Source: Lentinus brumalis (taxonomy: Eukaryota > Basidiomycota > Agaricomycetes > Polyporales > Polyporaceae). From it: a DNA stretch of 64,000 nucleotides. Position numbers and translations under genes: made by a program. Below, in pieces: positions 1-40,596 of this stretch; within the stretch, counting starts at the first letter, position 1, and every line of letters begins with the position of its first letter. The stretch is from positions 1-64,000 of the forward strand of contig MARA01000076.1 of assembly GCA_001792895.1 (NCBI GenBank), given 5' to 3'. The notes under the pieces were generated by a model. That model searched no databases, was not told where the DNA came from, and saw only the letters and a list, made by a program, of their open reading frames with translations.

Positions 1-19
1 ATAATGAAGGCCTTCCACT

Positions 20-1063
20 TCAGGCAGCATCGGGATTCCAACCCTCTGCAACCCTTTCCAATTGATCATTGTAGATACACCACTTAGCCCAGTCAATTGT
101 CGCGCAATGCATCCTATACCCCTGAGCCGCTTCTAAAGCCGTCTTCAACGCTCCTCGTTCAACCTGCAGGTATGCCAAGTGACGCGAGCTGTACTGATTC
201 AACAGCGCAGCGCTTTCCAGCACATGAGCCTGCATCGCTTCTCTATAAGCCGATGAAGATGAATCGGGCTCGGAGGCACGGGGACGAGGGGAGATGAACG
301 ATCCGGTGCCACTGGCAGGTGCTGCGGGAGTAATCCAGCGCCCGGACGTATTGTAGGTGGGGGCTGGGTTGCGAGGGCTGGTGAGCTGGGAGTCAGCGTG
401 CGGTGGGAGCACCTGGGACGAACGGGGGAATGCGGGCGAATGCGCCTGATCGGGCGATCGGGCCTCGTCGGGCGAACGGGCTTGATCGGGCGAACGGGCT
501 TGATCGGGCGAATGTGCGTGGTCGGGCGAATGTGCGTGGTCATGCGGAGCTCGTGGCGTCGGGGTGCTACCAGATACCAGCCGTGGGCTTTCAGCAAGCG
601 GGCGAGCTTCGTTCATCGGGCTGATTGTCCCTCCACGGATGGGAGAGAGAGGCGACGGGGAGCTGGGGACGTCCTCCTCCATTGAGATAGGGTGCCACAG
701 AGGTGAAATATCGGGGCGGGGAGGAGTTGCCACAGTAGTAATGGGAGAAAGCGGCCCCTCGTCGGAAATCAACATTGACCCATAATAGGCGATATTGCCA
801 TGCGGTCGTCCCAGACCCATCCGCATCTGGCGAGCCAAGCGTGAACGGACTGGGACAGGACCGTGCTGCAGCAAGAAGCTGTTCAGAACATTCCATGAAT
901 TCAGGTACAGGGTATACTCACCCGAAGATTCCTCCTGCGCGTCGATGCTTGCCATACGAGCATCACCCGATTCGTCCAGGGCGAGACCGAGTGGTGAAAG
1001 AGAACGGGTTTCTGCAGAGGGGCGTGCACGAGACAGCCTCGGCTTTTTCGATCGTCTGGCCAT
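20..1063 (-). CDS. Hypothetical protein with (A/H)xSPD tandem repeats
   Basis: An open frame of 347 codons starts MARRSKKPRL and ends at 20. The N-terminus is basic. The middle third is a run of SPD-centred repeats (DHAHSPD, DQARSPD) encoded by an 18-bp minisatellite. The C-terminal 80 residues are helical and Leu/Ala-rich. A GTGAGT near 915 followed by ...GAACAG could be a 43-nt intron, so the frame may be split there. It is divergently transcribed from the Zn2Cys6 gene across a 412-bp spacer. The family is not recognised. The SP-rich middle suggests a nuclear or scaffold protein, but that is only inference. Confidence 0.5.
   Translation of the reverse strand: MARRSKKPRLSRARPSAETRSLSPLGLALDESGDARMASIDAQEESSGEYTLYLNSWNVLNSFLLQHGPVPVRSRLARQMRMGLGRPHGNIAYYGSMLISDEGPLSPITTVATPPRPDISPLWHPISMEEDVPSSPSPLSPIRGGTISPMNEARPLAESPRLVSGSTPTPRAPHDHAHSPDHAHSPDQARSPDQARSPDEARSPDQAHSPAFPRSSQVLPPHADSQLTSPRNPAPTYNTSGRWITPAAPASGTGSFISPRPRASEPDSSSSAYREAMQAHVLESAALLNQYSSRHLAYLQVERGALKTALEAAQGYRMHCATIDWAKWCIYNDQLERVAEGWNPDAA
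447..530. repeat. 18-bp minisatellite containing TCGGGCGA
   Basis: TCGGGCGA occurs at 450, 468, 486, 504 and 522, exactly 18 bp apart, each with a variable half unit (AACGGGCT or AATGTGCG). It encodes the SPD repeats of the minus-strand gene. Confidence 0.9.
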
Positions 1064-1475
1064 GCGCCCGGTGTGCCGCTAATAGGATTGATGTGAGTAT
1101 TCAGGACGGCACTGGTGTGCTCACTCGCAGGAACTTACCGGGGATCAATGGGCTCCCAGTTCTCCAACTTGGGGATGAGAACACAGCGACTGTGGAAGAG
1201 CTATGTCGCAACTAGCAGAGCTGGGTACGAGGCCGGCGGAGATGTGAGACAATACCGGGAGCCGTGTGGAGACGAGTCGATCGTGGTCGACGAGTGAGGA
1301 TGCAGTGGGTACAACCCACCCGAACACAGGACCACGTGATGGTGAACTCAGACGTCGGGCGACATGCGCTGGCGCCCGAGCGGCTTGACTTGCTCATTCC
1401 TTGTTCGCTCATCGCTCTCTCGACTCTTGAGAACTCTCTGCCGTCTGACTAGCTTTATTATTGCTTCGCTTTGAT
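1064..1475. promoter_or_regulatory. Divergent intergenic spacer
   Basis: This 412-bp region separates two divergent genes and so should carry both promoters. It contains one TCGGGCGA (1355). No clear TATA box is seen. A pyrimidine/AT stretch (about 1440-1470) precedes the plus-strand start. Confidence 0.4.
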
Positions 1476-4233
1476 ATGTCAACGCCGCCAACCATGGACA
1501 TCAAGACCCTCCTCACCAAAATCCGGGAAGCAACGGATCTAATTCAGTCGGGCTGGCTGGCTCGACCTCCCATAGGGCACCCCCGTCGTTTGACGTGGCA
1601 GCGCTGCTGCCGCGAAGAGATTCGGAAGCTCAAGGAGCTTATGCGCGCCGTCAAGGAACCTCTCCCCGTCCCACCCCTCGTCCTTGCCCTGCTCGTGGAG
1701 CACGCTCGGGCGGTCTCGGCCAACGAAAAGGACTACAACTACGAGGCCCTGAACCCGGACAACTCGATTGACAAGGCGGGCGCGTACTTTACGAGGGATG
1801 ACACGTACAAGGTTCGGGTGAAGAAAAGCGGATGGTGGACGGACTTAGGTGCGTGGAACACAGCTGTGCTACCGATTCCGTCGCTAACCACGGATCCTCT
1901 ACTCATGAAGGAGGAAACCCGAAGCCGTGTGCAGCTGCTACGGATGGGCGTCGGGCGAATGAAGAAGACCCGTCCGCCGTCCGCAAGGACAATCATGCGC
2001 CCGGATCCCGCAAAGCCGCCCCCAGCGAGCGCGAAGCCGGTTCGGCTGCCTCAGAGCGCAAGCCAGTACTCTCCGCCAACCAAACGGACAGTCGCAGGAC
2101 AACCCGGGCGCGGGCTCGCGCTCAAGCAGAACCAGAAGCCGCCCTCCCGCCCGACATGCACGCGCCACCTGCAGCTCAGCGACCTACCCCCAAACCTGCT
2201 CCTCGTACCCAATCCAAGGCACCTCCAGAGAGCTCTGCCGCTGGCTCGAGGGATGTCTCGCTCACCCCCTCACCTGCGGCGCAAGACGAGGGGGTCTGGG
2301 ACCCTGCGTCCAAGCAGATTGCTGACGCGTGGTTGATCTCGGTGCGTCAACATAATTTTGGTTGTGTATGCTAATGCTCACGCAACTTTATGAAGCCCAA
2401 GAAGTGCAAGAAATGCCATGCGGCAGGTCATACGTGCCGCGTGAACCTGGTCCATGGCGTCGCATGCAACCGATGCACAAACTCGAGCGTCGGTTGCAGC
2501 TTTGCCGCCAAGCAGCCCCCGAGCGGCCCCAAGTGGACGTATGATCAGCGACGCTGGATCCTGGTTCATTGGGCCCGGAACGCGCAGGCTAATACGTCCT
2601 ACCCATCGGAGGTGCCTGCAAAGTTCCCTCTTGACTTCGCACCACCAGCTTGGTTCGTCGATGAGCTGCAGGCAGCCCGTGGCAAGGACACAGAGACCAC
2701 GAAGAAGCGAAGCAAACGCCCTCGAGCTGATTCTCCCGTTGGGCAGAAGCGTCGCCCCGTCGTCGCGCCGACCACGGACTCGGGCGAAGACAGTTCGAGC
2801 GTGAAGGCGGCCACCCCGGTCAGGCGCAAGCGGTCGAAGCGGTCAAAGAGCAAATCAATCAACGTCCACCTCGACAGCGATGATGGAGATGTTGAGGACC
2901 GCGGCAGCGACGATGACAGGGTGGAAGGCCTGGCTGACCTTCGCCCGATAAAGCGTGCTCGGACCGACTCTCGGGCGAGCAGTGCAGTGCCGCATTCGCG
3001 GGGTGAGTCCGATCCATTCGAGGAGATGTAGGATATTGACTGACTGACTAGTACGATGGAAACAATTACGCAACATAGAGCACATGCTGCGCGACGGCCC
3101 GGCTACCTCGGCGGCATCCATCACACGGCACATCACTACAGGGCTCTCGAGTGCCGCCGAAGAGTATGCACCCGACTTCGACCACCTGCTGGAGCCCATG
3201 GTTGGGCATCACCCGCACTCCTTCGTCCCTCCCTTGGCCCGCCCCACCCCATCGTTTGCGGCATCAGTCCAACCAGCGCTGGTCCTCAATTGGTCAACAG
3301 AATCAACGTGAACAACGCAGCGTTTGAGTCTGGGCTGGCGGCTCTGTGGGAGGCGGTTCGTCGCCAGCAGTTTGCGCATGCCAGCTTCCAGGAGGAGGCC
3401 CGCCGGGAGCTTATGGAGCTGAAGAGTTCGCTTTCCGCGGCTTCCTTGGCTTCGGTTTCAGTCGCTCATGAGCGCGACACCCTTCGTCAAGAATCGGACG
3501 AGAAGGCGGCCGAGATCAAACGGCTCCGATCCCAAGTCCTAGCCCTGCAGGCCCGCCTGGACGCTGCAAATGTTCCCGGCCCCACTCCTTTTGCCATGGC
3601 GGACGTGGCACATGCGGGGGCCGCGCAGCTTGTCCCGGTGGATGCCCCCAAGCCTACTGCCCTCGCACTCGCGCCACTGCTGCTGGCCAGGGATTACCCG
3701 GATCTCCACGGCGCGAAATGCAGCGCGGATGCAGCGCCATACGACCATGTGGTCGTCCCCGTATCTCATCCCTCCCAGGCCGTGGATGACCCCGCCGCTA
3801 CACTGCTCATGGAGGATGAGGATCAAGCAGGCTGTCCGCCCAGCAGAGCGGCGTCCCATGGAGATCAGTCACCGTCGGGCGATCAAGACGAGCCGATGCC
3901 CGACAGCGAGGAGAATCCACCGGCAGTCGAATCGACCACGGTGTTGTACGGGGCCTCGGGCGCATCTCGGTCCCGGATGCCATGCGTAATACCAGCTCAC
4001 CTCCGATATCCTCCAGGCCATCGTCGCCGTGCCTTCTGCCCGCGCAATGTGACGGGTTCCGTGAGCTCTCGGCATACGCGTCGTCGACCGAGAGCACGAA
4101 GTCAGTGCGTGGCTTACGCGCACTGTCGCGAGAGCCGCACAGCGACACCGCCGCGGGCGAAGAGCCGATTGCATTGATGGAGACGACGGGCGAACAGCCA
4201 GCCACTGAGGAGGGCGAGTTGGTGGAGACATAG
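1476..4233 (+). CDS. Zn(II)2Cys6-cluster protein with coiled coil
   Basis: Start ATG 1476 (MSTPPTMDIK). The clear exons are 1476-1848, 1911-2341, 2396-3002 and 3052 onward. The introns are GTGCGT..AG (62 nt), GTGCGT..AG (54 nt) and GTGAGT..CTGACTAG (49 nt). Exon 3 opens with C-x2-C-x6-C-x9-C-x2-C-x6-C (CKKCHAAGHTC then CNRCTNSSVGC), matching the fungal binuclear zinc cluster that binds DNA. Lys/Arg-rich nuclear-localisation-like and acidic tracts follow. A heptad-rich segment (about 3300-3570) looks like a coiled coil. The frame changes near 3170-3310 and again near 3960. A GTATGC..CATCAG intron of about 100 nt would fix the first change; the second is unresolved. A middle-homology region typical of full-length Zn2Cys6 activators is not seen. 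It is probably a sequence-specific DNA-binding protein. Confidence 0.6.
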
Positions 4234-4768
4234 AGAGCCGGCAGTAGCACACGGACTCCGGGTTGTGTCCCCGCATATAGTGTATATGTTGTGTACCGCA
4301 ATAGCATTCATTGGTGACGGCTTGCGTCGTAAAATGCTGCATCTGTGTCAGGTCCGCCCGCCAGTGCTTCGCCCGCCAATGCTTCGCCCGAAGGCCATTC
4401 TCCCGAACGTCCTCCGCCCGATGGACACCCGCCCGATAGACACCCGCCCGAGAGGCACGACCGCCCGAAAAGCACACATCGGACGTATTCTGTTCCAACC
4501 GCTTCCCGCAGGTGCCATTCAGACCAATCAATAGTCATTCAGGTCAGGGAAATACACAGAGACTAAGGACAGGATGCGAGAGGGAGGGCTGCGGATACAG
4601 GGCAAGGAACATAGTAATCATAGGTAGTAGAGGCGGCCGCATGCTGCGACCAGGAGCTGCTTAGTTCGTATGCGGATCGGGCGAATATCATAACTAGACT
4701 GTGTGACGACCGTACAGCGGGGTATATCGACGTAAGAGGTCGGCACACATACCTCGGGCCTTCCGCGC
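4234..4768. other. Convergent intergenic region with GGGCGA-type motifs
   Basis: This stretch lies between the ends of two convergent genes. It holds a run of CGCCCGA/CGCCCGC motifs at 4350-4470 in irregular 15-18 bp spacing, including TCGCCCGA at 4384, and another TCGGGCGA at 4676. Open frames across it are low-complexity Pro/His/Arg and have no supporting codon pattern. No gene is called. Confidence 0.5.
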
Positions 4769-7700
4769 CTACTTCTTACGTGACGACCTTCGCAGCACCC
4801 GGGCGGGCGGGGAATCAATGACTTGGGGTACGGCCTCCGCCTCCTCCTCGTCTTCATGCTCTGGTTGGGGTGGCCGACCTGACCGGCGGCCTCGGGGTGT
4901 CTGCGCGGGGGTGGAATTGCGTGTGGAAGGGACGGGGAGCTCGACGTAACACCGGGGGAGCGCATGAGAGGGGTTGCGAGCGGAGGCCTGGGTGCGAGTT
5001 GACCCGACGTTCCCCGTCACCGCCATCTCTACCTCGTCCGCGGAGGTTGTTGCGCGAGCAGCCAGGGCCTTGCCTTTCCCTGGGTTCCGCCCCCCGAACT
5101 TGCCCGCTCGAATGCCCGGCGGAGCGCCTCGCTTCCCCATGATGCGAGCCTCCTTACGGCTGAGAGGCACTGTTGACGCAGACCCGTGAGCAACGCGTGG
5201 GCCGGTGGACTTCGCTGCGGACCCGGCTGGGATCCCAGGGTGCTGGGAGGTGCTGCAGAGAGGAAGAATTAGCTCGGCTGCGTCGCGCAGGAGCGACTGC
5301 GAGGCGCGTAGGTATTCTGGTCCCCCGCCTGGGATATCGTCGTGGCTGTCCGGTTCGATGTCGTTCGCGGTATAGATGTCCCGCAATGCCAGCCCGACGA
5401 TCAGGGTCCACTGCTGGACGTCCGAGGCTGACGACGTAGGCGTAGGTGCATTGTCGGAGACCCACTCCATGACCGAGCCCCAACGCTCCCTCGTTGCGTG
5501 GAAATGGCTGGGAATTCCCCAACAATCAGAGTCCCAATTCGCCCAGCGGCTGACCTTCGGGTCGCGCAGGTGCGAACGACGACGAAGCTACACGCTATGA
5601 ATGAGCATCACATATCAAAAAAAAAAAGGGGGTTAGCTCACCATGTGTCGCCAGGACGTCAAGTAGTCCCGGTACGATGCTTCGCCGGAGAGTGACCACA
5701 GGTAAGGAATTATCCGTTCCGGGTCACTCTCGACCCAGCTGGGAGGATTCCCGGTAGCAGAGACCAGGATCACTTGCCGAGGAGGGATACGACCGGTCCC
5801 AAGGCCATGACGCCCGACCGGGGCATCATCCCAGGGGCCGGGGATGTGAGGCAGGGGATCAGGTCCGGGCGTGTCCTCGGGCATTGGCTCGGGCGAGTGG
5901 TCGGGCAGAGACCCGGGCGGATTGCCACCGGCCGCTTTCTTCACGGGCCTCGGCTTCGGCTTGGGCTTCTTCGGGCCAACGGTCGGCTTCGGCTTGCTTG
6001 GGCCAGCGGTCGGCTTGCCGTGGGCATCGAGCCCGTTGTTGGGTGCGGTAGGAGACACGTCAGGGTCAGAGACGTTGAGGTCGAAGGTCTCCTCATCGGG
6101 GCTGTCAGGCGATTGGTTGCGCAGCTTCTCGTCGATGTCCTCGCCCGCTTCGGACCCCGCTCCTGAAGACTTCGCAGACGCCGAGTCATCAGCTGCCTTC
6201 GCCCTGCCCTTCCCCTTGTCCTTGGGAGCCGCGTTGTCCTTGACATTGCTGGGATCTTGCTGGCGGGCGTGTCTCCCCTTGGACTTGGTCCTCTTCTTCT
6301 TCCGACCCTGCGCCTTGGCCGCCCCGTCGTCCTCCGCGGTCGAACCCCCCTCGTCGGTGCCGGTGCCGTCCTCACTGCGCTTGTTCAGACCGAACGCGCC
6401 GGGAGGTGGGGCGCGCTTCGTCCGTGCGGCGTGACCCTTGCGCTTCGCCTCAGCGATATGCTTCGGGCGCGGAGGCTTCCCGTACGCAGCCTTGAGTCGT
6501 TCGCCCGCATCCTCGCCCTTCCCAACTCGCTTCCACCAGTGCGTCCAATGGAACCGCTCATCGGAGGTCTCCGCCGACGTCTGCAGGTCGAGAATGTGCT
6601 GCCACAGCTCCTTGACGCAGCCGACCGCCATGCGCATCGGGTTCTGGAAAACGAGTTCTTCCGGTAAGGCGTCGGGCGGAAGATAACGGGCGGTGTCCTT
6701 GGCCACAGCCTTCCAGGCGACAGGTTCGTCCTTGATACCGGACGCAGCTTCTGCTGTGAGGGTCAGACGGTATACGCACAGGTAGCAATATCGGGACGCA
6801 CCCCAATGCAACGAGAAGTAAGTGTGCAGGACGACACTCAGCACCTTGCCGTACCGGAATAGGTCCATCGAAGGCAGGACGGGCGTACCGTCCGGAAAGA
6901 ATGTGAACTCGTGGGGAGGGAGTGTTGGTCGTGGGGCGTCCGGGTCGTTGTCGTGCTCGTCAGGGTGGAAGCACGCATGGCAGTACTCCTGCCAAGTGCG
7001 TTTCGGGTTCTTGACTCGCCACTGCTCGAACGTCGGGACCTGTCGGTTCCCAGCGTGCCAGATCATGCTCACATCGTGTCTGAAAGAGCCGTAGTGTCAG
7101 CTCGAGCGAGTACGTGGTACGGCATAGTGAACACGCACACCCCGTGGACCATGTCCTCCTTCTTGTCGAGGACGCAGAACTCGATCCGCGCCATGGCTCC
7201 GCACTGGTCGTTGACCCAGAGAACGATGGCCTGAATCCAGTCGGCCAGTCGTTTCTCGGCGATTCTAGACGAGCGATGAGGTCAGATATAAGGCGGTTGA
7301 GCATAGGCAGCAACTCACAGGGCGCGCAGCTCGGGGTCGGGCCCGTTCTCAATCCACTGCTCGGCCTTTTCATCGTACGCCGCCTGGTCGTCGTCGCTCA
7401 GTTCGTTCCAGAGCTCGGATCGGGCGATGTTCAGGGCGGCGATTGGAACCTTGCCCGCCTCGACGAGCTCTGCCTTGCGGAGAAGGATTGCCTGGTCCTC
7501 CTCGAGGTTGAAGACGTCCCGTCCTGTCCAGAGACACTTGAGTGCCTTCGGGAGGCGAGAGTCCTTGTTGCCGGAATGGTTGGAGAGCCACAGGGTGAGT
7601 TTCTGAAGAGTGTGGGTGAGCGTTGTTGCTCGCGCGTAGTTGCAATGTACGTTGAACTCAGCACTTACGCCTCTCAGATATCCGCGAGCCCAGGGGTTTT

Positions 7701-7884
7701 TCGGAGGCAGCTGGCGGCCCTCGAGGAACTCGGTGATGAGCGACTCCTTCAGGGCCGACTTCTCCTTTTTCGACTTCTTGGGCCAGGTCTCGGTGACACC
7801 ACGGAGTCGGTCTATCTCGCGCGGATGGAGGGCGATTTCTGAGTCGTCGGTACCGTCGAAGTCGGGAGGAATAGGAACAGCCAT
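4769..7884 (-). CDS. 966-aa protein with HMG-box-like segment
   Basis: A five-exon model closes exactly: 7884-7669, 7602-7319, 7264-7121, 7079-5642 and 5587-4769 (2901 nt). The introns are 66, 54, 41 and 54 nt, the 41-nt one being the weakest. The N-terminus is MAVPIPPDFDG. Residues around 120-165 (AALNIARSELWNELSDDDQ, then AAYDEKAEQW) look like the second half of an HMG box. A Trp/Cys-rich globular part follows, with YCHACFHPDEH and RYCYLCVYRL. The C-terminal 500 residues are Lys/Pro/Asp-rich and disordered, with KPKP repeats, ending in RRSSRKK. HMG-like proteins have been reported near fungal TET and KDZ genes. Its location beside a TET/JBP-like gene, divergently transcribed, suggests a chromatin or DNA-binding role. 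Confidence 0.7.
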
Positions 7885-8352
7885 GTGTGGCGAGGAGCGA
7901 TGTGATAACACTTTGAGTTGAGTAGTAGCACTGAGTAGTACACGATGTGGACTAAGCGGGGACAAAGCTCGCGGCGCAGACGTGTATATATAGCATCGAT
8001 GCCAGAATCAATTATTGTGACAATCTATGTAGTCGTCCATGTCGAGGATATTGACATCAATGCGTCGCAGTGTAGCCGGGATAACCTCGCGGTGTCCTCG
8101 AGCGTTCGTGATCGCCTTTGGACCTCCTTTGGAGCAGCACGGAAATCTACGAGGGCGCAAACCTTCGACAGTAAGTTTAATCACCACATAGTTCGGGGAG
8201 AGCACTTACGCTGTAGGAATGACCAGAACGGAACAGCATGTACTTGGCATGAGGAGGCCACGAGGTGCGCGCTATGCAGCATGCGGCGCGCCTGCGATTT
8301 GTACGTCTTCGAACCTCCTTCGTAACTTGTTCCCTGCGATCTGCGTCTCTCC
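7885..8352. promoter_or_regulatory. Divergent spacer with possible extra 5' exons
   Basis: This lies between the 966-aa gene and the TET/JBP-like gene. It contains plausible coding from about 8038 or 7999 to 8325, split by a GTAAGT intron (8173 to about 8215-8225). The downstream part reads CTWHEEATRCALC and then a further Cys, a possible zinc knuckle. It could be the N-terminal exons of the dioxygenase or a separate small gene. No splice combination I tried joined it in frame to the ATG at 8353. Confidence 0.35.
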
Positions 8353-9658
8353 ATGGCGCCAGACCCGCTGCACTCGACCTCGTCACACTGGGACTTCGTT
8401 GACGAGGTCTCAGAACGCTTGGTCCTGCTCTTCCATTCTGTGCGTGCTGGCGAGAAGGCATGGATGGCTTCCCAGCGTCTGTCAAATGGCCGCCAGAATG
8501 CGTGGTCTGCGCAGCTGGACCAGGACCTCATACGAGCTGCAAAGGTGCTAGCTTCTGCATGGAGCTTTAGAGGTAAGTACGTTTTCTAATTACCCACTGC
8601 ACAACACCCACCAGAATCAGTCCCATTGGACTGGGATGCAGACGCCTTGTGCGCATTCATGTCGAAGAAGCCGCGAGGGCTCAATATGGAATACGAAGAC
8701 TCCCTTCTTGAGAGTTTTCCGCCCTTTTGCGGCGTGGAGAGCGTCCTGTCCAACGACATCCCCATTCTCATGCGACCTGGGATTATCATCGATAATACTG
8801 GCAAGGTACTCGCCTGGGCCCTTCCACAGATTCTTTCTGAGACTCGGCAGGTGTGTGTTAATACGTATACCATGCAACAATTAAGCTTACATTGATGTGC
8901 AGCACGATATACTCAAAGCGACAACCTGCCTGAAGCATGAGCTACACACCGTAGGGAATCTTCCCGAGGCAGGCGCGAACCCCCTACTCCGGTGGCGTGT
9001 GGCCCCAACGTTCTATCACCCAGGTCAGCAGTGGCCGCCGGAAACTGGCTAGCTACTCCTGGAGGGTATGCGCTCGGACACAAGGTTGGTACACCCCGGC
9101 ATCTGCACGATCGTCGACCCACTGAATGGCGTATAGAGCTCACGCTTCGCGCCTTGTCCAAGTCGCACTCTCCGATCCCCTGCGGGCCAGGAATGGGGTC
9201 GAAGGATGAAAGAATCCGGCGCCCTTCTAAGTGCGATTCTTCGGGTCGTCCACCCGGCGATGTACGATGCAGGAAAGATGTCGCTGTCCCGTATCTCCGC
9301 CGACCCTTCCATCGCCGCAGCCCTGGATACGTGGCCTACCGTCTTCAATCACGTTCAGATCATCAGCAATCGTGCAACACCATTTCATCGTGACACCAGC
9401 GGCGCACCGCCGTGGTATGACATGCTCATGACGCTTGGGGCGTACCGTCGCGCTGAGCTCGTCTTGAGGAACCTTGGCATCCAGATAGGGTACAAGCCGG
9501 GCACGATCTCGCCCATATGCAGCCTCATCCTTCATCATGGGGTAGGCAAGGTTCGCGGGGACAGACTTTGCTACTCATGGTACATGTCTGAAGCCGTACA
9601 TCGCAACTTCGACATCCCTGATATATCCTACATGCGCGCTGACTACTACCCAAACTAG
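8353..9658 (+). CDS. TET/JBP-like 2-oxoglutarate/Fe(II) dioxygenase
   Basis: Model: exons 8353-8572, 8615-8850, 8903-8998, 9053-9130 and 9191-9658, giving 365 aa. The last exon carries the expected double-stranded beta-helix signature: FNHVQIISNRATPFHRD, then LTLGAYRRAELVL, LILHHGVGKV and GDRLCYSWY. This gives an H276-x-D278 iron motif, a distal His at 325/326 and Arg335 for 2-oxoglutarate. By family this would oxidise 5-methylcytosine in DNA, in the nucleus. TET/JBP genes are expanded in basidiomycetes and linked to KDZ transposons; here a KDZ gene starts 200 bp downstream on the same strand. The fourth intron (8999-9052) has a weak GTGGCC donor. If it is not spliced, an in-frame TAG at 9050 would make the gene broken. 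N-terminal exons may be missing. Confidence 0.7.
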
Positions 9659-9857
9659 AGCACACAATGTAAACGGGAATGGAATCATACCTATTGCATA
9701 TACGTTTACCTCTCGCTACCGGCCGACGGCGCGTTTCCTCGATGCACGGACGTGAACCAGTGAGTGCCGGGTGCCTCTCTATGCGGTACATAAGGACTCT
9801 GCGGCGATGGGCTACAGTGCACTCGATCATCAAGGCTCCGGCCGCCAGGGTACAGCA

Positions 9858-12800
9858 ATGACTGGCTCGCGTATTCGTCTATCCACCTACAGCTCAGCGG
9901 CAGAGAGAGAAATTGTCACGGTGAAAACCCGCCGGGGCCCTCGGGCGATCCTACGACCGGCACGACCGCGCAAAACCCACCCGAGCGATGCCGCCCCGCC
10001 CCGCATCCAGCCCGTAGGTTTCAATAGACCCAACGGCTCAACGCTCCCGATGGACGACCTTGCTGGCACCCAGTTCACATTCACGGCTGGAACTCCGGTG
10101 AAAGCGCGCATGGTGAGTGTTCCAGCATGATGTCGCCGTCGCTCCTATCCCTCAGCATCGGGGTGCCTCGCAGCGACCCAACGATTATCAGCGTGAGTGG
10201 ATGCGCAGCCAGCGGGATGTCTATCTCCGCGAGCTGTACGACATGGAGGCGGGCGCCGACAAGGCAATATGTCGGTGTGGCAAGGCTGCCTTATGGCGAT
10301 GCCTTGGGTGCATCGGAAGTTTGCCAATATGTGCTCAGTGTCTCCGCGATTCTCATCGCTTACTCCCCTTCCATCGGGTTGAGTTCTGGGCGGGGACGTT
10401 CTGGAGAGCAGCATGGCTGCGTACCGTCGACGTGCAGGTCCATTTGGGTCATGGTGGCGCTCCTTGTTCATATCTCAGAGACGTCTCCAGCCACCCGCCC
10501 GGGAGCGAACGCACCACTACAACCGCGGCGACATCGACAAACACCGACCCCATACCCCAACGTTTTGCGGACCCCGGACGACCCATCATTCCCCTCCCGA
10601 CCCACCTCCCACTTCCTCGTGTATCCCTTCAAACAAGGCCACGACTCCGTCGGACACAGAGCGCCCCGCAGCTGTCTCCATGGTTCTCGAATCAGACATG
10701 GGTAAGAGCTGTGGCTAGACCAAGGGAACTACCATTCACACTGTGTTCTAGCCGCAAGCCTCTACCACGAGCACACAAGGGGACACCGACCGCCCGAAGC
10801 GGGCGAAGCAGTCGCCCGAAGGCAATCCGCCCGACGGTCTGCGCCCGCTCGCACCGCGCGTTCGCCCGGAGGGAACCCCGGCCGAACTCGCAAGCGCACG
10901 AGTACCGCACTCGGGCACTCCTCGCCCGTTCAAGCGCACGGCAGCCGAGGCGGACCTAGACCAATTGGAGCAAGAAGAGAGCGCACACGAGCCATCGCCA
11001 GACCTGAGAACAGCAGACGATGAAGAGGAAGAAGTCGACGAAGTCGCGGAAGACGAAGACGACATTGTCGAACCCACCCGATTTGACGTTGAGGCTGATG
11101 ACGCATCTGACATGCCGCGGGTAGGGGAGGAGGTGCTCGAGCCCTTCCAGACGCGGAGCGCACCGGAGTATCGCAAGCCCCGGCATGGATCGACCCTGAT
11201 GATGGTAATAGTTGATACGAGCGGTGTTCATGAGCTTCCAGTTGTGTTCTGCGGCTGCCCCAATGCGCCCACCCGCGACATTCAGCTGCTGCGCATGGGA
11301 CTCTACCCTGCGACGTCGCGCCGCCCACAGACAGCATTCACATTCCGGCTCCTCGACGACCACCTGCTCACGAATAAAGAATGCAAGATTCCTGCACTCT
11401 CGTATTACAGCCGGCTTCGGCGGATAACCAGCGAGACCTTCCCCCACATGGTGCCGGTGAGTTCCATTCAGGTTAGTGCAACCACCCGACACCACTTACG
11501 TTCGACGCCCTCAGGATCGTTACCGCGATCTTCTACGTGTCTCAAGACAGTGGAGGAATCTGCGAGCCCGTAGGCAGGCGGGAATTGGGTACCCCGGAGT
11601 CCCTGCACCTGGCCCAGGCACATTTGCTATCAGATGCCCGGCATGCCCGTGGCCGGGCATCAACATGCGTCCAGGATGGGAGACTGACGCCGACAGGTGA
11701 TATCCGGGCGGACACCAACGAACTAGCAGAGCGGTATTGATGGCTGCTTTTACAGGTGGGCTCACGCGGCATCGATAATCATGGACGGTAACTTCGGGGC
11801 TCAACACATGAAGATGAAGAACCCCGAGGACGATGTTCGCTTTGCAGATGGGCACGGATACATGGTTACTGACGACCCGTACAAGGAGCACCTTACGACT
11901 GCCTGCAAGCCGAAGCGGCAGGTAATGTATTCCAGCATTGATACTCAAGGATCCTCACTGACGTGCATCCCTGCAGAAACTCGAATGCAACGAGCACCGT
12001 GCGGTCATCGGTGCGGCATCCGGGCGAGCACCGCTCGAGGCCACCGGCATTGGTGCTGCCTGCTGCAGTCGGCACGGGTTCTTCTATCCCCACTGTGTCG
12101 TCGACTTTCAGAAGGGTGAACAGTGAGTCAGGGAGCAAGGCACCCAATCTCACCCGACTGACGCACGCTCTTGCAGGCAGAAGAACATGGACTACTGTCT
12201 ATATCAAGTAACCGTCTTCTTGCACGGTATTCTGCTCCTTCTGGTCCTATACGATGTCTGGTGCTACTATTACAAACATCTCCTCTGGCGATTCGACCAA
12301 AGCCCGGCACTCTCGCTCCCTCCTAATCTCACAATCACTGGGGGCATCGGCCAGTTCCATGTCCATGCCCATCGCGCGGAGTGTTACCCTAGATTCTCAC
12401 CCGTCTTTATCCCGGGTGCAGGGCAGCTGTTGATTGAGTTCATTGAGCCCTTGTGGATAGAGACCAACGAGGTCGCCGGGAGCACGCGCGGGATGTCCAC
12501 GGCCCATCGTCAAGAGTTTCTGGACGACCACATGAACGACTCTAATTGGTATAAGATGACACGCCTCGGTCAGTATGGCGATATATGATTTACACGCCCG
12601 CCTCTGAACCCTCGTTTAGCTGTGGCGCTCTCCCGAAAGTGGGTCACGGCATGCACCAAGGTTGGACCCGCTATAGACGCCTTCGACGACCTCACCAAGA
12701 ATACACCGCAGGACAAGGTCACTGTATGGACGCAGGCCGCTGAAAGTGCTGCCCTTGAACGGCACAACGACTACGACGTCATGGCTATCTATGACGTGCA

Positions 12801-14151
12801 GAGCGCGAAACGTATGTCGCACAATTTCATCCACCCGAACCATCTCTGATGCGGTTACTTGCTTGACCGACCGCAGTTCCAACGCTGCAGCAAATACAGC
12901 TGGAGCTCGTCCAAGCGGAGAACACACGGCACGGGGCGCAAATGGGCGTTGCTGCGTGGATTGTGTCCGGCCTCAAGCTCGAGGAGTCGAAGTAAGTGGT
13001 TCAGACTAGTGCGAGGCGTTATCCGGCGTTGACGGAACCCCAGGCTCGGACTTGCTGCAAAGGCCCGGTCAGTGCTACCCTCGAGCCCCGTAGCCGACAG
13101 GCTCGCGCTAGAGCAAATGCGGAGCAAGCTGTTCAAGGATATCGAACGGTTCCACAAGCAGTCTCGGGCGTTTCTGACCGCAAACGCCCTGAGCGCATTC
13201 TTCAACATCACCAGGGACGCATCAACGCTCGGCTCTGAGTGGGATGAGCATATACTACCTCGCGAGGACAACCCAGATGGCGACGATGTTCCAGTCGTGC
13301 CGGAGCGAGCGAGACTCTTCCTCCCATCCACCCTTGGCGCTCGGGCCTGTCGGACCTCTGGGATAAGCAAGCTGCTCGAAGCTGAGCGGCAGTTGCGCGT
13401 CGGGCAGATGAACGATGCTCTACATGCCGTTCGGGTCGGTATCGGCTACAAGTCCTTTCTCTACCGGACGTCTGTGCGTACCGCCAACTCCCAGACGAAG
13501 AAACTCCGCAGCTTTGATGACGTCCAGACCGCTGATGCTGGAATTCTTTCGAACGCGCGGGTGTACGAGACGGCGCGCGCCTCGCTCCTGCAACTCTACG
13601 ATCTGTCCGACCCCGAAGACGCTGAGGAGCTAGAGCGTACGACCGGCCGGTTTCGCCCGTTGCTACGTAGCGATTTAACGGTCAACACAGCGATCATCGA
13701 AAGTACCACTCGTGGCCTCAGCAATCTGCACCTGCCGTGGTTTTGGTACCTAGATGGTGGGTCAACTGCTACCGACGGATCTTGGACCGACGAAAGTAAG
13801 AATGAGTTGTCGTTGTCTCGTGGGGCTTTCATATTTGACCTTACTGCTGCAGTGTACAGGGTGGTATGGCTTCGAGGATACGCAAGAAAACTGCGATGGG
13901 AAGAGGAGGTGGTCCTCGTCTATCTAGAAATGCTCCGGATGGAAGAGGCTCTGGAGCGCACTACACAGGTCTGGGAGAACCGAGGAAGGGGCGATGTAGA
14001 CGCAGGGTATGCGTCGTGGGCTGAACGGCAGGCGCACCTCTGGAGGTCTTTGCGCTCGCACGCAGCCGGACTATTCAAGCGCATGCGGGCTTCGCATCAC
14101 CCTCAATGCACATCTGCCATCATATCCCGCAACATCCCCGAGTTGTCTTAA
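9858..14151 (+). CDS. KDZ-family transposase with CxC2 cysteine cluster
   Basis: An eleven-exon model closes exactly: 9858-10112, 10156-10701, 10752-11456, 11515-11696, 11756-11921, 11977-12122, 12177-12568, 12620-12811, 12877-12991, 13044-13795 and 13853-14151. It encodes 1249 aa. Around residues 120-165 is the CxC2-like cluster (CRCGKAALWRCLGC, PICAQCLRDSH). HELPVVFCGCPNAP follows. The catalytic core shows MDGNF (Asp near 572), LYDVWCYY (Asp near 692) and NEVAGSTRGMS (Glu near 765), the expected D-D-E triad of Kyakuja-Dileera-Zisupton transposases. The C-terminal helical part contains EAERQLRVGQMNDALH, also typical. Disordered acidic sequence lies at 10.9-11.15 kb. It appears intact and would cut and move a large DNA transposon. 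Terminal repeats were not identified. Confidence 0.9.
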
Positions 14152-14411
14152 GCACGCATACCCACCCGCTTTAAAGGGGTACAATATGTAACATATGCCA
14201 CCCAATATCACGCAGACCGTTTCGCTCTGTCGACAGAAAGCAGAGAACTGGCCGCGCGGCGTTGGCATCGGGCGAGCCAAGATTCGCCCGACTGGGCGGT
14301 ACGGTCGGCCGAGATCGTCGCTGCCCGATGCATGTCAGCTGATATGGGCCGCTGCCGGAGGCCGCGCGTCACTTGAGCCTTCCGCTCTCTCTGTTTGCCT
14401 ATTCCCAGATC

Positions 14412-15594
14412 ATGCACAAACCCGCTGCATTGGAACTGCGCTACACCGCCCACCGGATTGCAGAGGCTCTCCGGCACTACCCCGAAGATGCGGACGAGAC
14501 GATGCAGGCTCGATGGGAGCATGGACTGGCGCGGGAGATGGTGAGTTACTCCCCCTACCCAACGGCTTCTGCGCCGACGATTGATCTATATACTAGTGGA
14601 CCGTGACGGGTGCCATGGGAATAATGGTCGTGCATTCCCTCAGCAGGCCGGATGAGGCCTCAACCGATGACATCCCGTCCCTTTTCCACCGCCTTCTCCC
14701 GCAGATCGAATGGGATGGCATGAAGATCAACATCGATATGTCGACGCTCGACCGCGCTGCCATCATTGCCGCTTCAGACACATCGTATGAGTTCTCCGAA
14801 GGCTCCGAAGGGTGTTTCACTGGCTTTGAGTGGTGGACGTGGCCCTCCCTTTCCGGCGACACCCACGACTTTCCATACTGGTGGAGGTCGCCCACACGTT
14901 GCGTGGTGAGTCACAATTTACTTCAGGCGTTTTGCTGCGTTCTCGCTTGACATCAGCAACGGTGCTCCAGCGGCGGCCCATGCAAGTCTATGGCATGGAT
15001 GCAATCCCAGCGTGTACGCACGCTGAAGAGATAGCCGCCATCTGCCGCAACCAAATCGACTTCACGAACGACGAAATTGATCGAGAGAGAGTGACTCGGG
15101 CCCATCTTGAGCAGGTCCTCGGTCACGGGCTGAACACGATCATGCAGGATGCAGGCACTCAGGACACCGGGTCACATATCACGGAGAAGTCCGTGCGCTT
15201 TGCGTCAATGCCAGAGGGCGACGAGAGTGTCAGGGGTGTCCGGACCCAGCCGGACGTCCAGCCGCAACGTTCAGGTGGTAGCTCAGTGGACGCGGATGAT
15301 CATCGGTCATCAGGCGGATCTTCGGGCGAACAGTCGGACGAGCGGTCGGGCAAGGAGCAGTCAAGCAACACGAGGTCGGGCGGACGGTCGGGCGGACGGA
15401 CGGGCGGACGGGCAGGCGGACGGGCGGGCGGACGGGCGGGCGGACGGGCGGGCGGACGGTCGGGCGAGACATTGGGCGAGACATCGGGCGGCGGACGTTC
15501 GGGTCATGCCCCGGGAGAGGAGGGGCCCAGGGGCGGCGTGGCAAGCGCAAAGTTACGGGGCAGCCCTGAAACCGTTCTTCTGTGCTGTACGTAG
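14412..15594 (+). CDS. Hypothetical 353-aa protein with Gly/Arg/Ser repeat tail
   Basis: Exons 14412-14540, 14597-14905 and 14971-15594 are all in phase 0 (introns 56 and 65 nt). The first part starts MHKPAALELRYTAHRI and is helical. The middle is Trp-rich (GFEWWTWPSL, FPYWWRSPTRC). A helical stretch (QIDFTNDEIDRERVTRAHLE) precedes a tail of GGRSGGR/GGRAGGR units encoded by a 12-bp repeat. It follows the KDZ gene by 260 bp on the same strand, so it may be cargo of the same element. The family is not recognised. The RGG-like tail might bind nucleic acid. Confidence 0.6.
15377..15470. repeat. 12-bp GGGCGGACGGGC minisatellite
   Basis: About eight head-to-tail 12-bp units lie inside the 3' exon of the 353-aa gene. 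The array is flanked by TCGGGCGA at 15322 and 15460. Confidence 0.85.
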
Positions 15595-15849
15595 TATCAG
15601 TCAGTGAGTGTCCTGTTATTCCATATCAGATTGTGTTGTTGGACCCATTTGGAGTGAATATCTCTATTATGTGCTCTCATCATGCTCGCCCAACTGTCAT
15701 AGACATCAGAAATCTGCATGGTCAGCTCTGAAACCACAATGCTTGGTACAAGGTAGACATAGATATAGCCTACTTGCAGTAGATAGTACCATCAAGGCTC
15801 AACTATATGGACCACTGGAGTAGGTTATACTAAGTACTCGCAAGTGTGG

Positions 15850-18000
15850 TCTGAAGAATGTAAGCAATACACTACTCAGGGGACGGTGACATGGACCACC
15901 TCTCCATTATATACATAAGCCTGACATGAACAGGGAAACTGTATAGTCATTATTATGAAGGGAACAGGTTCGGCCACAATGTACAGAGCCATGGCATGAA
16001 CAGGCTATCACCTATGGCTATCAGTGTGACATGAACGGGATATGTGAGCAGGTCATTATAGTACCTCGAACAAGACATCACTCAGACGCTGTCTTGGTGT
16101 GGTGAACGGGGCCCTGATGTCGCCAAGAGACGTGATGTGAACGGACTATACCATATGCTCATTCTGGAGACAGGAACAAGCGAGGTGGCATGGCTTTTGG
16201 AGTGTCACGAACGGGACACACAGCATGGTCATTCCAGTGACATGAACAGGAACGGCAATATAGGCATCTGCCCATAATGATAAGTGCATTCCCGCTGCTC
16301 ACACACACCATTACCTATTGTGGAGTTGCAACCTAGAGTTGAGCCAGGAAGTACCAACATTGTTGAAATCAGGACTTCCTGCTGATATGAGCCCTGCTAC
16401 TAAGGGACATGGGGTGCATATATTGAGAGGGGCCTGTTATTATGCCACCAGCTAGGGAGAAGACGAACATGTACGCATGCAGTTTGTGCTCTGGTTGTGC
16501 GAACAAGATATTTATGTAGTCACTGTGATTAAGGGAACAGAGGCCTCCACATTGCCCACAGACATGGCATGTACGGGCCATGCTCTATAGTCACGAGCAT
16601 GACTCGAACAGGATATATTGCTTAATCATTGAAGTGACTCGAACAGAGCACCACCTAGAGGCAGCATCAGTGAGGGGAACGGTGCATGATATATAGCCAT
16701 TCTAGTAACCTGAACACAGAGGTACCCAATATCTAGTATGGTGGAAGGAACGAGGCACACTGAGTTAGCACAAATGTAATATGATCAAGGCGTGGTATAG
16801 CTATTATAGTGAGTTGATCAGAAAGAGGCTGAATTCCCAGGTGTGTTGCCCGAACGGAGATACATGTGGTGGTCATTCAGGAGGATCGAACGGAGGTCCT
16901 ACGATCAACACTGCAGTGATATGAACAGAGATCACTTGGATTTTGCTGGAAGCCACCAGAGGCAAACAGTGTTGGTAAGGACATGAGCAGTAAATTCTAG
17001 GACTTTACTGAAAGTTGCCATCATTGAGATGTCTTCACAAGAGCCGTATGATAAGGACCCAAGCATCACTCATAGATGTGGAGTGAACAGTAGATATAAT
17101 TCAGGACGACAGTGATCTGAACAAAGCATACATGATTATCCCATGGTGCTGCTCGGAACAAGAACCTCATTGTTGTCACTGCAGTTATGTGAACAGACCG
17201 TCACTTGTGCCATTACACTGATGTGAACGGAACACATCACATTCATGACAATTGTGATGTGAACAGAGCCCATCGCTGTAATCACTTATGTGCTGTGAAC
17301 GGAACACATTGCTGTAAACACTATTGTAATGCGAACGGGTTTCCCAAGGATGCTCACGGAGGTGGAAGGATCAGCTCCGATCACATTGGGCAGATTGGTG
17401 ATGTGAACGGGAACACCACCCGGAGGGGCATCTTTGCAGGATGCCTTCATCGAGAGCACAACATAACTCATAACAAGTGTGATCATCGCTGTAATCACTT
17501 ATGTGCTGTGAACGGAACACATTGCTGTAAACACTATTGTAATGCGAACGGGTTTCCCAAGGATGCTCACGGAGGTGGAAGGATCAGCTCCGATCACATT
17601 GGGCAGATTGGTGATGTGAACGGGAACACCACCCGGAGGGGCATCTTTGCAGGATGCCTGCATTGAGAGCACACATAACAGTGGTCATCTCCGGGTACAA
17701 ACACTAGGAATAGGAACAGATAACAGTTTGCACATGCATTACGTTGTGTGTTGCAGTACAGTACTCTGAACACCCCGTATATATGAGCACTACAGTGCTG
17801 CGTACACATGACCAGAGGTCATCACTGGGGCCATGCGAACAGCTACCAAGAAGGATCCCCTGAATGTGACATGAACAGGTCATGAAATATGAGAACTACA
17901 CTGATATGATCACTACAACATTGTACCCATACCAGTGAGGTGAACATACACAATGTAGTTCACACTCTGGTGATGTGAACGGCCAAGATACTTACCTATG
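15850..18000. repeat. Degenerate satellite with ATGAACRGG core
   Basis: Across roughly 2 kb a core resembling (G)TG(A)CATGAACRGG recurs about every 40-60 bp, always in the same orientation. Examples lie near 15924, 15990, 16027, 16132, 16240, 17221, 17250, 17405 and 17870. Spacer sequence is poorly conserved, so this looks like an old tandem array. The stretch 15600-15850 before it is unremarkable. No gene is supported. Confidence 0.65.
17271..17680. repeat. Tandem duplication, 213-bp unit
   Basis: CATCGCTGTAATCACTTATG begins at 17271 and again at 17484. The two copies are almost identical to about 17675. The unit length is 3 x 71, so one plus-strand frame stays open across both (17205-17666, 153 codons). 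Its composition (Cys/His/Asn/Gly) and lack of introns or context make coding doubtful. Confidence 0.9.
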
Positions 18001-18287
18001 CCAGCAACAACAAGCAGGCCACAGCAGATTGAAAATAGCAAACAGCTAAGCCGTTCCAATCCTGAGACGTCCTTGCACCAGCTCACAAAGGCACAAATGA
18101 TTCGTGTAGCTGTGTGTTGTCTTGACTGGTCCAGCCTCAATGATAAATACCTCCGAGTTCTATGCTCAAGTTATAAGAGATGATGGTACACCACCCTAGC
18201 AGCGGGCTTGTGCATGCTCCTTTTCATATGGTCGCAGGAGGAGCATTACAAGATAACCAACTCTGATCCGGACTCAGGGCCGAATCA

Positions 18288-18784
18288 CACAGTGCAGCAC
18301 TCACCGGCCAAGGCTCGCTATTCTGGTAGGTGGGAGACTGGCTGGCTATAGGCTGGACAACTGCCAGCAAGCAAGCTCTGCTCGGATGTCTCTCAAGCTG
18401 GACACTTACCCCAAGTCCGAAGGCTGGGGCCAAGCTATTAGGATGACAATATCATTGCACCAACCTATTGGCCATCTAAAGGCTGAGCTCGATGACACTA
18501 GGTAGTTGCCGCCTACCACAGGTGGGCTGACCTACACAGTGCAGCACTCACCGGCCAAGGCTCGCTATTCTGGTAGGTGGGAGACTGGCTGGCTATAGGC
18601 TGGACAACTGCCAGCAAGCAAGCTCTGCTCGGATGTCTCTCAAGCTGGACACTTACCCCAAGTCCGAAGGCTGGGGCCAAGCTATTATGATGACAATATC
18701 ATTGCACCAACCTATTGGCCATCTAAAGGCTGAGCTCGATGACACTAGGTAGTTGCTATCTACCACAGGTAGGCTGACCTACAC
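18288..18784. repeat. Tandem duplication, 247-bp unit
   Basis: The segment starting CACAGTGCAGCACTCACCGG occurs at 18288 and 18535. The copies differ at only a few bases (for example near 18440/18688 and in the last 40 bp), so the duplication is recent. Confidence 0.92.
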
Positions 18785-19580
18785 TGGTATGATCCAGCTC
18801 TGTACAGGCAGGGGAGCGCAAGATGAACCTCACTAAAGAGTCCAGGAGGCACTCCCCATAGCCCAGTATATACCATGCTCATAGATGATCCTACATCAGT
18901 AGCGCCCCAGGGGTGCCCTGCAGTCAAGGATCATGGATACCCATGTGTGGGATCTATGCCGTTCATGTCACCACCATATATATAGTAGACTCTGTGTTCA
19001 GGCCACTAAGATGCTGTGATGTGGTATTCTTGTTCACTGTACATTTATGAGAGGATCAGGATGGCTGAACAGGTTTGTTTCAGTCACCTTGGAGGAGATT
19101 AGTCAGTCTGTATGGGATACTATCATGGGGTAGTATACTGAGTGGGTTGTATATCCGTGGGCAAGGCTGACCCCGGCGTTCTTCCGATCTAACTTTTGCT
19201 TTCCTGTACGTGCGCTGGCAGCTCACTACTGACGTGAATTCTTGACTGATCAAACCCATCAGTTCATGGCGTACTTGTTCATTGGCCTCTGCGCTGGAGG
19301 CCTGGCTATCATCCTGGGCATGGACATCGCTGAGAGGCCGGTGAAACTCAGATACATGTGAAGGTGTGCCGCGGAGGCTTCGCAGAGGAAGGCGCATCGA
19401 GCGATCGCGAGCATTGTCCTCGAGCGTCGTCAAGCGTCGTTGAGCGTCTGCGAGTGTCTGCGAGCAGTGGCGATGACTCGCTAGCGACGGCGAGCGTGCA
19501 TCGGACTTGGAGCAAGCTCAATGTATGATCACATATAGGTGTATGATGATAGAGCAGTCACAGGATGTACATCACTTGTC
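18785..19580. other. Region without a convincing gene
   Basis: The only sizeable open frame is 19080-19433 on the minus strand (117 codons, Arg/Ser-rich, starting MTTLEDNARDRSM). It has no recognisable domain and may be a chance frame or an exon fragment. At 19425-19500 there is a short run of imperfect GCGTCGT/GCGTCTGCGA repeats. Confidence 0.4.
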
Positions 19581-38882: not shown

Positions 38883-39762
38883 TTAGGTCGAAACTTCAAC
38901 ACGAGCACTGGCGTACTCCCCCCTTCCCCACCCTCCACCGGTTGATTGCTGGTTCTATAACCACGCGCTCGGTGTTGAGCTGTATCTGTCGCTGTTGGTT
39001 CTACAACCTACGTGCGCGGTACTACCCTCCTGGACCCCCACCGCTGTCCAGTAAGACTCTGAGGTCCACTGACAGGCGAAGGTCAGGTGAACTCGTGTTC
39101 TACCTGACGTCGACCTCTACACACTGGATCAGCCCCGTCCCTCTTGTGCCCCCTACAACCACGCCTTTCATTCAAGTGCGGTAGAAGATCATCACTGGCG
39201 CGGCACTGATCAGTGGTACATCTGTGATCAGCAACCTTGTCCAGAGCGACTACCTACCTGGGCATCAGACGCAAGTCTGGACCGACTCCATATCTACGTC
39301 TATCCCACACCTGAACAGGAGGAGCAGATCCGCCAGCGACTGACACAACCGGTTGCTACTACTACTGCTAGTGGACGCCCCCTACGTGAGGCAGTCCGCC
39401 TTTCGTCCAGCAGACCAGGTACCCGCCCGCCGAGCCGTCTCCCTAGCCGCACCAACACCCCTCCCACTGAGTCCCCACTCGGTGGATCCCGGATCCCTCT
39501 CCCCACTGCGCTCGTCCTTGCCAGCGAGCGTCTGCAACGTCGAGCATCAGGATCCTTCAGTCCAGTTGCCACCACCTCGGTACTGCCCCCTCAGTCCCAG
39601 CCGGAGGGACGACAACCTGACATCGTCCTCAACTCCCCGCCTCGGACTTCCCCACCACCTCTTCCTCCACGGAATCCTTCACGGACGACTACCCCTAGTG
39701 CTCCGTCGCAAGGCTCCTCGCACCCCACCACACCACCACCCATCACCCCCACTCTCCCCACC

Positions 39763-40596
39763 ATGACGGCTCCTTTTGACGTCACCAAGCTCCTGCCGGT
39801 TCTACTGCCTCGAGAGTACGATGGCAAGAATGCTCAGGAAGGCCTCACCTTCATCAGCAGCGCCACAGCCTATCACGGAGTTGCCACCAGGGCAGGAGTA
39901 GGCGCGAACCTGATCTGGATGGTCGTCTTGAACCGCCTCACAGGCGATGCTGCAAGCTGGGCCGGGCCGCATATCATCACGGCAGCCACAACTACTCCTT
40001 GGGCGGATGTCGCTGCATTCGAAGATGCGTTCAAGGCCCACTTCTGCGCCGTAGATGACAAGGAGGCAGCCACTGCTGAGCTGGTCAAGCTTTGCAAGGC
40101 TTCGCACAGGCTTGGCACGGTCAAGGAGTACACTGCTGAGTTCAATGCGGTGGCTGCTCGGACTGGGTTCTCCGATGACGACAAGCGCGAGCGCTACCGT
40201 GAAGGACTCCCCTATCGCATCAAGGACGAGTTCGCCACCACTGCTCACGACATCTCTACCCTTGTCAAGATGCAGACGGTTGCCTTGCAGATGGACCAGC
40301 ACCTGGCACGACGGTCAGAGGAGCGACCTCGCACCGGGAAGTTCCCAAAACGCGGCGAGAAGGTAGCTGCGAATAAGGAACGTCCTCCTACCTCCGGTCC
40401 CACCGGTTGCTTCGTCTGCGGACGAAACGGTCACAGGGCCGCCCAATGCCCGGAGAGGAAAGGCGGTCAACGCGCCGCAGCCTCCTCATCATCCTCCACG
40501 ACGTCGGATGAGGTGGTCGCCCTTCAGTTGCAGCTCAAGGCACTGGAGGAGCGCATTGCCACGCTGACGACGATGAAGGAGAAGGAGGGTTTTTGA
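39763..40596 (+). CDS. gag: Gag polyprotein of chromovirus
   Basis: 277 aa starting MTAPFDVTKLLPVLLP. A retrotransposon Gag-type helical domain fills residues 1-170. A CCHC zinc knuckle, CFVCGRNGHRAAQC, lies near residues 215-228 and should bind RNA in the virus-like particle. It stops at TGA 40594-40596 directly after the slippery heptamer. A leader of 880 bp precedes it. Confidence 0.92.
   Translation: MTAPFDVTKLLPVLLPREYDGKNAQEGLTFISSATAYHGVATRAGVGANLIWMVVLNRLTGDAASWAGPHIITAATTTPWADVAAFEDAFKAHFCAVDDKEAATAELVKLCKASHRLGTVKEYTAEFNAVAARTGFSDDDKRERYREGLPYRIKDEFATTAHDISTLVKMQTVALQMDQHLARRSEERPRTGKFPKRGEKVAANKERPPTSGPTGCFVCGRNGHRAAQCPERKGGQRAAASSSSSTTSDEVVALQLQLKALEERIATLTTMKEKEGF
40587..40593 (+). 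other. -1 ribosomal frameshift site G GGT TTT
   Basis: The last seven bases before the Gag stop are GGGTTTT, read as G GGT TTT TGA in the Gag frame. This is a canonical X XXY YYZ he​ptamer. Slipping back one base reads GGG TTT TTG ATT and enters the Pol frame without a gap. Confidence 0.8.

Follow-up and report, generated by a model that had tools for sequence, protein, structure and literature searches.

The sequence analyzed, hereafter the window, is the initial 64 kb of contig C111 of the Lentinus brumalis assembly (MARA01000076.1; 71,125 bp, in a genome of 53.4 Mb and 136 contigs). It carries a gene for a TET/JBP-type dioxygenase and, head to tail with it on the + strand, a gene for a KDZ transposase (Table 1). 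The original prediction, made from the letters of the window, placed a dioxygenase core about 200 bp upstream of a same-strand KDZ gene, and the distance separating the two coding regions was measured at 199 bp. Profile searches assigned both genes to the families foreseen. The first model gave a Tet_JBP match (Pfam PF12851; E value, 1.2e-14; window positions 9137 to 9658) containing the H-x-D...H...R core, and the second gave a KDZ match (E value, 1.4e-45; residues 569 to 790, exons 5 to 7) together with the cysteine clusters CxC2 (E value, 7.1e-24; exon 3) and CxC1 (E value, 3.7e-07). The KDZ gene had been read correctly as an intact gene of eleven exons.

Both genes lie inside one mobile element. 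The earlier idea that they form a single mobile unit was right in this respect, but the element is far larger than the pair, at about 20 to 21 kb, and carries further genes. Collinear copies found on contigs C53, C115, and C83 are 99.75 to 99.98% identical over the compared pieces, and the homology spans the gene pair from the start of the contig to window position 19149. A unit bounded near 8353 and 14151 was rejected, because the homology among the copies extends far past the gene pair. Base 1 of the window is a contig end; in the other copies the left end of the element, CACATAGCTCAGTA, lies 1.3 to 2.3 kb ahead of the equivalent of this base, and the window has all of the element except this first 1.3 to 2.3 kb. 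The right terminus, TACTGAGTGGGTTG, is exact at six places in the genome (C22, C65, C83 [twice], C111, and C115), and the left terminus occurs at seven, one of the left termini of this element type being at C43:773272-773285 on the - strand. The termini thus have the form 5'-CA...TG-3', and 9 of the 14 positions match, as read by eye, when one of the ends is inverted, the inner CTCAGTA being exact.

Duplications of 7 bp flank the element at two insertions. The TATATCC that follows the right terminus in the window also precedes the left terminus on C115, and C115 and C111 appear to hold opposite sides of a single insertion. A complete relative of 19,942 bp (C65:29508-49449), which shows about 70% identity across the TET and KDZ regions, is flanked on both sides by GGCTCCG within a single contig; the right-hand GGCTCCG was predicted from the left flank, and the sole match in the genome lies at the predicted place (C65:29501-29521). 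In the near-identical subfamily to which the window copy belongs, three different sequences flank the left end and three the right end. Two element copies stand head to tail with about 311 bp between them (L077, positions 88 to 398, on C115; a matching stretch lies near C83:14440-14754), and the second of these copies (C115/C83) has the left flank ACCGCGC. Within the copy designated C83B are two insertions, both ending in TGATACG...CCTATCA, at window-equivalent positions of about 6661 and 10254. These insertions occupy C83:22754-35561 (about 12.8 kb) and approximately C83:39170-54246 (about 15 kb), with apparent 4-bp duplications of CCGG and GCGC.

Table 1. Features of the element in the window (positions in the 64-kb stretch)
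Feature	Position(s)	Strand	Remarks
Mobile element, part within the window	1-19149	+	Collinear copies on C53, C115, and C83
TET/JBP dioxygenase gene	8353-8572, 8615-8850, 8903-9084, 9137-9658 (exons)	+	Frame-shifted in the window copy
Catalytic exon of the TET/JBP gene	9137-9658	+	Open in the window; HRDTSG...D, then H and R, at CcTET core positions
KDZ transposase gene	9858-14151	+	11 exons, 1249 aa, open in the window copy
Right terminus TACTGAGTGGGTTG	19136-19149	+	Exact in six genome places
Target-site duplication TATATCC	19150-19156	+	Repeated just before the left terminus on C115
Right subterminal noncoding region	15600-19149	+	CpG observed/expected ratio, 0.40; GAACRG motif array
Open frame A, 352 aa, low complexity	20-1078	-	Open reading frame list; candidate coding only
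Gene-like stretch B, two open frames	1449-3031	+	Open reading frames and C65 DNA matches
Gene C, several exons, divergent from the TET gene	4769-7884	-	C65 DNA matches and protein relatives
Gene-like stretch E, 3' of KDZ	14412-15047	+	Exon 14412-14540, open frame from 14597; C65 DNA matches

The TET reading frame is open in copy C83B. In a search of the PDB, its 386-amino-acid protein matched entries 8jkk (E value, 2.3e-22) and 7vpn and 7w5p (E value, 2.7e-22) of the Coprinopsis cinerea enzyme CcTET, and these CcTET entries were the only matches with an E value below 0.1. An R downstream of the iron ligands has a role in the TET/JBP core. In the alignment with CcTET, counterparts of the HxD...H iron triad, of this downstream R, and of Gly331 and Asp337 are all present, the numbering of the last two being that of PMC12730594, transferred to the window sequence through the CcTET alignment. 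The L. brumalis gene and CcTET are thus alike in the HRDTSG...D core, Gly331, Asp337, and the downstream H and R. Unlike CcTET, the L. brumalis gene is part of a transposon whose ends have been located, and its frame is broken in the window copy. Three protein relatives of TET were found, the sole named one being from Polyporus arcularius, with 54% identity over 67% of the query.

Linked copies of the two genes had been expected at other loci of the genome, and they were found. The profile search gave 29 Tet_JBP matches, of which 17 have a KDZ match 2.3 to 3.2 kb downstream on the same strand (counted with 150 of at least 159 KDZ matches), while about 0.13% of random stranded points would have one at 2 to 3.5 kb by chance. 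The pair in C83B is 17.9 kb apart because of an insertion, the TET gene on C16 lies at a contig end, and the contig C97 has no KDZ among the matches listed. The remaining nine Tet_JBP matches are unpaired and have a different sequence around the core. All 20 TET genes of the first sort, except C35, which is cut short, keep the H-x-D...H...R core and the counterpart of Asp337; in the C97 gene, T replaces Gly331. The 17 pairs include many near-identical copies and so represent roughly eight or nine diverged families. Seven weaker TET/JBP-like genes (L028, L029, L030, L031, L033, L035, and L036) share the core NR(F/Y/W)S..HxD and have no KDZ partner; they form a separate family and are perhaps host genes.

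In the seven families for which both sequences were available, the protein distances of TET and KDZ agree (Mantel r, 0.94; 4 of 5,040 permutations as high), as expected under joint inheritance. Compared with two diverged relatives on C65 (C65a and C65b), the ratio of nonsynonymous to synonymous substitution rates (dN/dS) is 0.117 and 0.116 for TET (373 and 377 codons, with the open C83B gene as the reference) and 0.076 and 0.093 for KDZ (1,184 and 1,085 codons). These values are rough, dS being close to saturation at 1.6 for TET and 2.3 to 2.7 for KDZ; the constraint itself is clear, and both genes are under purifying selection. It is highly improbable that the two genes are chance neighbors or were spread together by segmental (subtelomeric) duplication. 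Many copies do lie close to contig ends, and the homology does reach far past the gene pair; however, the copies share exact termini while their flanks differ, two insertions have 7-bp duplications, and divergence is correlated, and the four placed contig ends (the starts of C111, C53, and C83 and the end of C115) all fall inside the element. Such breaks would be expected of an assembler faced with near-identical 20-kb repeats. Subtelomeric duplication as the sole source of the copies was rejected on the grounds of the termini and the 7-bp duplications.

Elements carrying a TET gene in this way are already known in mushrooms, and the present one is a further, unusually well outlined family. 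The association of TET/JBP genes with KDZ transposons in basidiomycetes, which the original prediction took as known, is indeed published. The main text of Kojima 2025 (PMC12730594) describes TET+ Kyakuja elements with 7-bp duplications and CA...TG ends in Agaricomycotina, including Polyporales, discusses their escape from silencing, and mentions in its introduction that fungal TET/JBP genes had earlier been reported close to several transposase families. The L. brumalis element resembles TET+ Kyakuja in its KDZ transposase, its AG-type TET/JBP gene, its 7-bp duplications, and its CA...TG ends. It may differ in the imperfect 14-bp inverted match of its ends, the Laccaria families being stated in that text to be without terminal inverted repeats (TIRs). 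A size of about 20 to 21 kb, extra conserved genes, and dense motif arrays were not found in the main text of PMC12730594, from which the word "subterminal" is also absent. The assignment to Kyakuja, which is a probable one, is based on the ends, the duplication length, and the TET type, and the KDZ domain and the TET residues agree with it. KDZ1 of Cryptococcus neoformans, as described in the available text of PMC12810828, is likewise a recently active DNA transposon with a cysteine-cluster domain in its KDZ transposase. In contrast to the L. brumalis element, it is about 11 kb long and has 241-bp TIRs and 8-bp duplications, and that text does not mention a TET gene.

One mobile element is supported by the open KDZ frame, the domains, the 7-bp duplications, and the near-identical copies at several sites. 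We consider it very likely that this element is a DNA transposon of about 20 to 21 kb of the TET+ Kyakuja kind, in which the KDZ transposase would move the unit and the TET enzyme would oxidize 5-methylcytosine (5mC), lowering silencing. As in other members of its family, the transposase would cut and paste the whole unit between the CA...TG ends. The AG-type TET/JBP enzyme, judged from CcTET, most likely oxidizes 5mC, and perhaps N6-methyladenine (6mA), on the element, and the transposase gene and the noncoding ends might then be less silenced; it is plausible that silencing is lifted in this way. Copies whose TET gene is broken may rely on enzyme made elsewhere in the nucleus, by either other copies or other TET+ families, provided that the deletion described below is no sequencing error. 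With the gene pair now placed in an element with located ends, a single locus is enough to test which bases carry methylation, whether transposon-borne TET acts there, and whether copies with an open TET help those with a broken one.

Several observations weigh against this reading, the first of which is that the TET gene of the window, as assembled, is frame-shifted upstream of its catalytic exon. Relative to C83B, one base is missing from a run of C near position 9035, and this shifts the frame into a TAG at 9050 to 9052. The deletion is present in C111, C115A, C83A, and C53, that is, in four of the five assembled copies, and the full TET frame found in C83B is lacking in the window copy. 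It had been proposed that the TAG is removed by an intron ending at 9136, giving a spliced model of 365 amino acids. This intron was rejected, because it would remove 21 residues, GQQWPAGNWLATPGGYALGHK, the counterparts of which are coding in C65a and C65b and are found also in the Polyporus arcularius protein (P0001) and a metagenome protein (P0002); the stretch aligns partly with CcTET as well. In a by-eye translation of the alignment, C65a reads ...WPAGSWLATPGGYAMGHK and C65b reads ...WPTGSWLATPGGYAVGHK, with a GT donor next in both. The TAG thus arises from the frameshift and is not part of an intron.

Copies C111 and C83A have an open KDZ frame, but the frame is shifted in C115A and C53 and interrupted by an insertion in C83B, and no assembled copy of the subfamily has TET and KDZ both open. 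For the right flanks TACGACC and GACGGGC, no left flank of the same sequence was found in the assembly, and two of the left flanks, GCGCGGT (C53) and ACCGCGC, are reverse complements of each other; either rearrangement or misassembly of near-identical 20-kb repeats may account for these flanks. Nor did CpG depletion, taken as a proxy, support protection by TET. The CpG ratio is 0.64 to 1.09 at TET+ loci (n = 15) versus 1.05 to 1.15 at TET- KDZ loci (n = 8), so that the TET+ loci, which include six pairs from one element or family each, are not less depleted, in a comparison that is biased in that the eight TET- loci are the best-scoring KDZ loci.

The presence of one deletion in four of five otherwise near-identical copies suggests that copies spread with it, as they would if TET were here a decaying passenger, inactive in an element that moves without it or with outside help. 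That TET is such a passenger seems unlikely to us in view of its dN/dS of about 0.12 against the C65 relatives, its open frame in C83B, and the stop-free TET exon matches in both C65 relatives. The deletion may also be of a different nature. One-base gaps private to one copy (C53 at 7549, 11592, 12340, and 14298; C115A at 11441) look like long-read assembly errors, and an error of sequencing or assembly is likewise possible at 9035. In addition, C115A and C83A have the right flank and the start of the following element in common at about 100% identity and may represent one stretch of DNA placed in two contigs, in which case the independent observations of the deletion number fewer than four.

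A further point against relief of silencing comes from the available text of PMC8889193, in which oxidized methylcytosines in Laccaria and Coprinopsis are tied to the silencing of transposable elements and not to its relief. This link would fit at least as well with an enzyme that is active as a modifier and not as an eraser, one that produces 5-hydroxymethylcytosine (5hmC), 5-formylcytosine (5fC) or 5-carboxylcytosine, or acts on 6mA, and thereby marks the element or protects it from deamination. The same text reports 5hmC and 5fC to be enriched in retrotransposons and DNA transposons and indicates a silencing role for them. PMC12730594 relays, in its main text, that in Coprinopsis the oxidized methylcytosines occur alongside 5mC over transposons, Kyakuja included, and that CcTET acts on 6mA too. 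We regard this modifier role as possible but rather unlikely.

The noncoding ends of the transposon contain candidate target sequences. From 15.6 to 19.15 kb, the observed/expected ratios are 0.40 for CpG, 1.49 for TG, and 1.51 for CA, against a CpG ratio of about 1.0 in the element genes. The hexamer GAACRG occurs in this right-hand region 31 times on the + strand (1.7 expected) versus twice on the - strand (0.7 expected), and in the left end (in L077) 10 times on the opposite strand, against 0.7 expected and with 8 of the 10 forming a single tandem array, and once on the + strand; the counts for the middle 15.6 kb are 15 and 8 (9.0 and 8.0 expected). At the right end, 15 of the 30 spacings between motifs are 34 to 36 bp and 8 more are 70 to 72 or 104 to 106 bp, and a less strict flank, GTGAYRT, accompanies the motif. 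In other superfamilies, transposase binding sites typically form oriented subterminal arrays of this sort. Within the first 681 to 724 bp past the genes of the C65 relatives, the motif counts are 0 and 1, which is the chance level, and a literature search found no paper combining KDZ, subterminal, and transposon within the library searched.

These arrays could belong to a full anti-silencing system, which we consider doubtful. In such a system, the opposite-oriented, CpG-bearing arrays would be both the landing sites of the transposase and the target of host methylation, the element's own TET would keep the motif CpG unmethylated, and CpG-to-CpA changes at the right end would be a tolerated escape. 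The right-end motifs comprise 16 GAACGG and 15 GAACAG and no GAATGG, though CA and TG are equally rich there; the left end holds three GAATGG, which speaks against the CpG-to-CpA escape. The argument that the right-end hexamer has hardly any decayed neighbors is weakened, because sites scored by the flank include GAACAA, GAACAC, GAACAT, and GATC variants. The CpG-bearing arrays are a concrete candidate target, like the tandem repeats on which VANC proteins act in Arabidopsis. The VANDAL/VANC system, according to the available text of PMC10398659, is alike only in how it works, with a transposon-borne anti-silencing factor and rapidly diverging noncoding tandem repeats. It differs in that VANC binds specific noncoding sequences and there is no dioxygenase, and no homology is claimed. 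CpG is similarly depleted at 47 to 54 kb of the window, where a DDE_3 transposase fragment lies along with one of the copies of a long repeat, and CpG depletion may mark methylated repeats in this genome generally.

The additional genes of the element are less well defined than the TET and KDZ genes. DNA matches in the C65 relatives were found for stretches B, C, and E and not for frame A, in which a DUF1388 repeat match fell under the cutoff. In stretch B, the matches lie at 1665 to 1855 and 2401 to 2738. No Pfam family scored above the cutoff for this stretch, which includes a cysteine-rich segment, CKKCHAAGHTC...CNRCTNSSVGC, with the look, by eye, of a zinc cluster. The N-terminal part of gene C is weakly HMG-box-like (HMG_box_2; E value, 0.03, under the cutoff), and little was gained from a PDB search with the N-terminal frame and a homologue search. 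Its open reading frame at 5633 to 7096 has six protein relatives with 43 to 90% identity. The dN/dS values of gene C are 0.27 and 0.24, with one or two stops in the matched frames, which overrun exon ends. Those of stretch E, for which no Pfam family was found, are 0.17 and 0.25.

Contig C111 is rich in other mobile elements. A Gypsy-type retrotransposon with a chromodomain at the integrase end occupies 39091 to 44348 (gag, 39091 to 40596; pol, 40512 to 44348). Two repeat copies, 92 to 93% identical and about 8.1 kb apart, at 44381 to 44728 and 52560 to 52877, are possibly the terminal repeats of one element; all differences in the 99-bp part compared are transitions, and the intervening stretch is largely CpG depleted. 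Further transposon pieces encode a DDE_3 endonuclease (47818 to 48474), a Transposase_21 (tnp2) domain (34011 to 35621), and a Copia-type RVT_2 domain (53963 to 55327).

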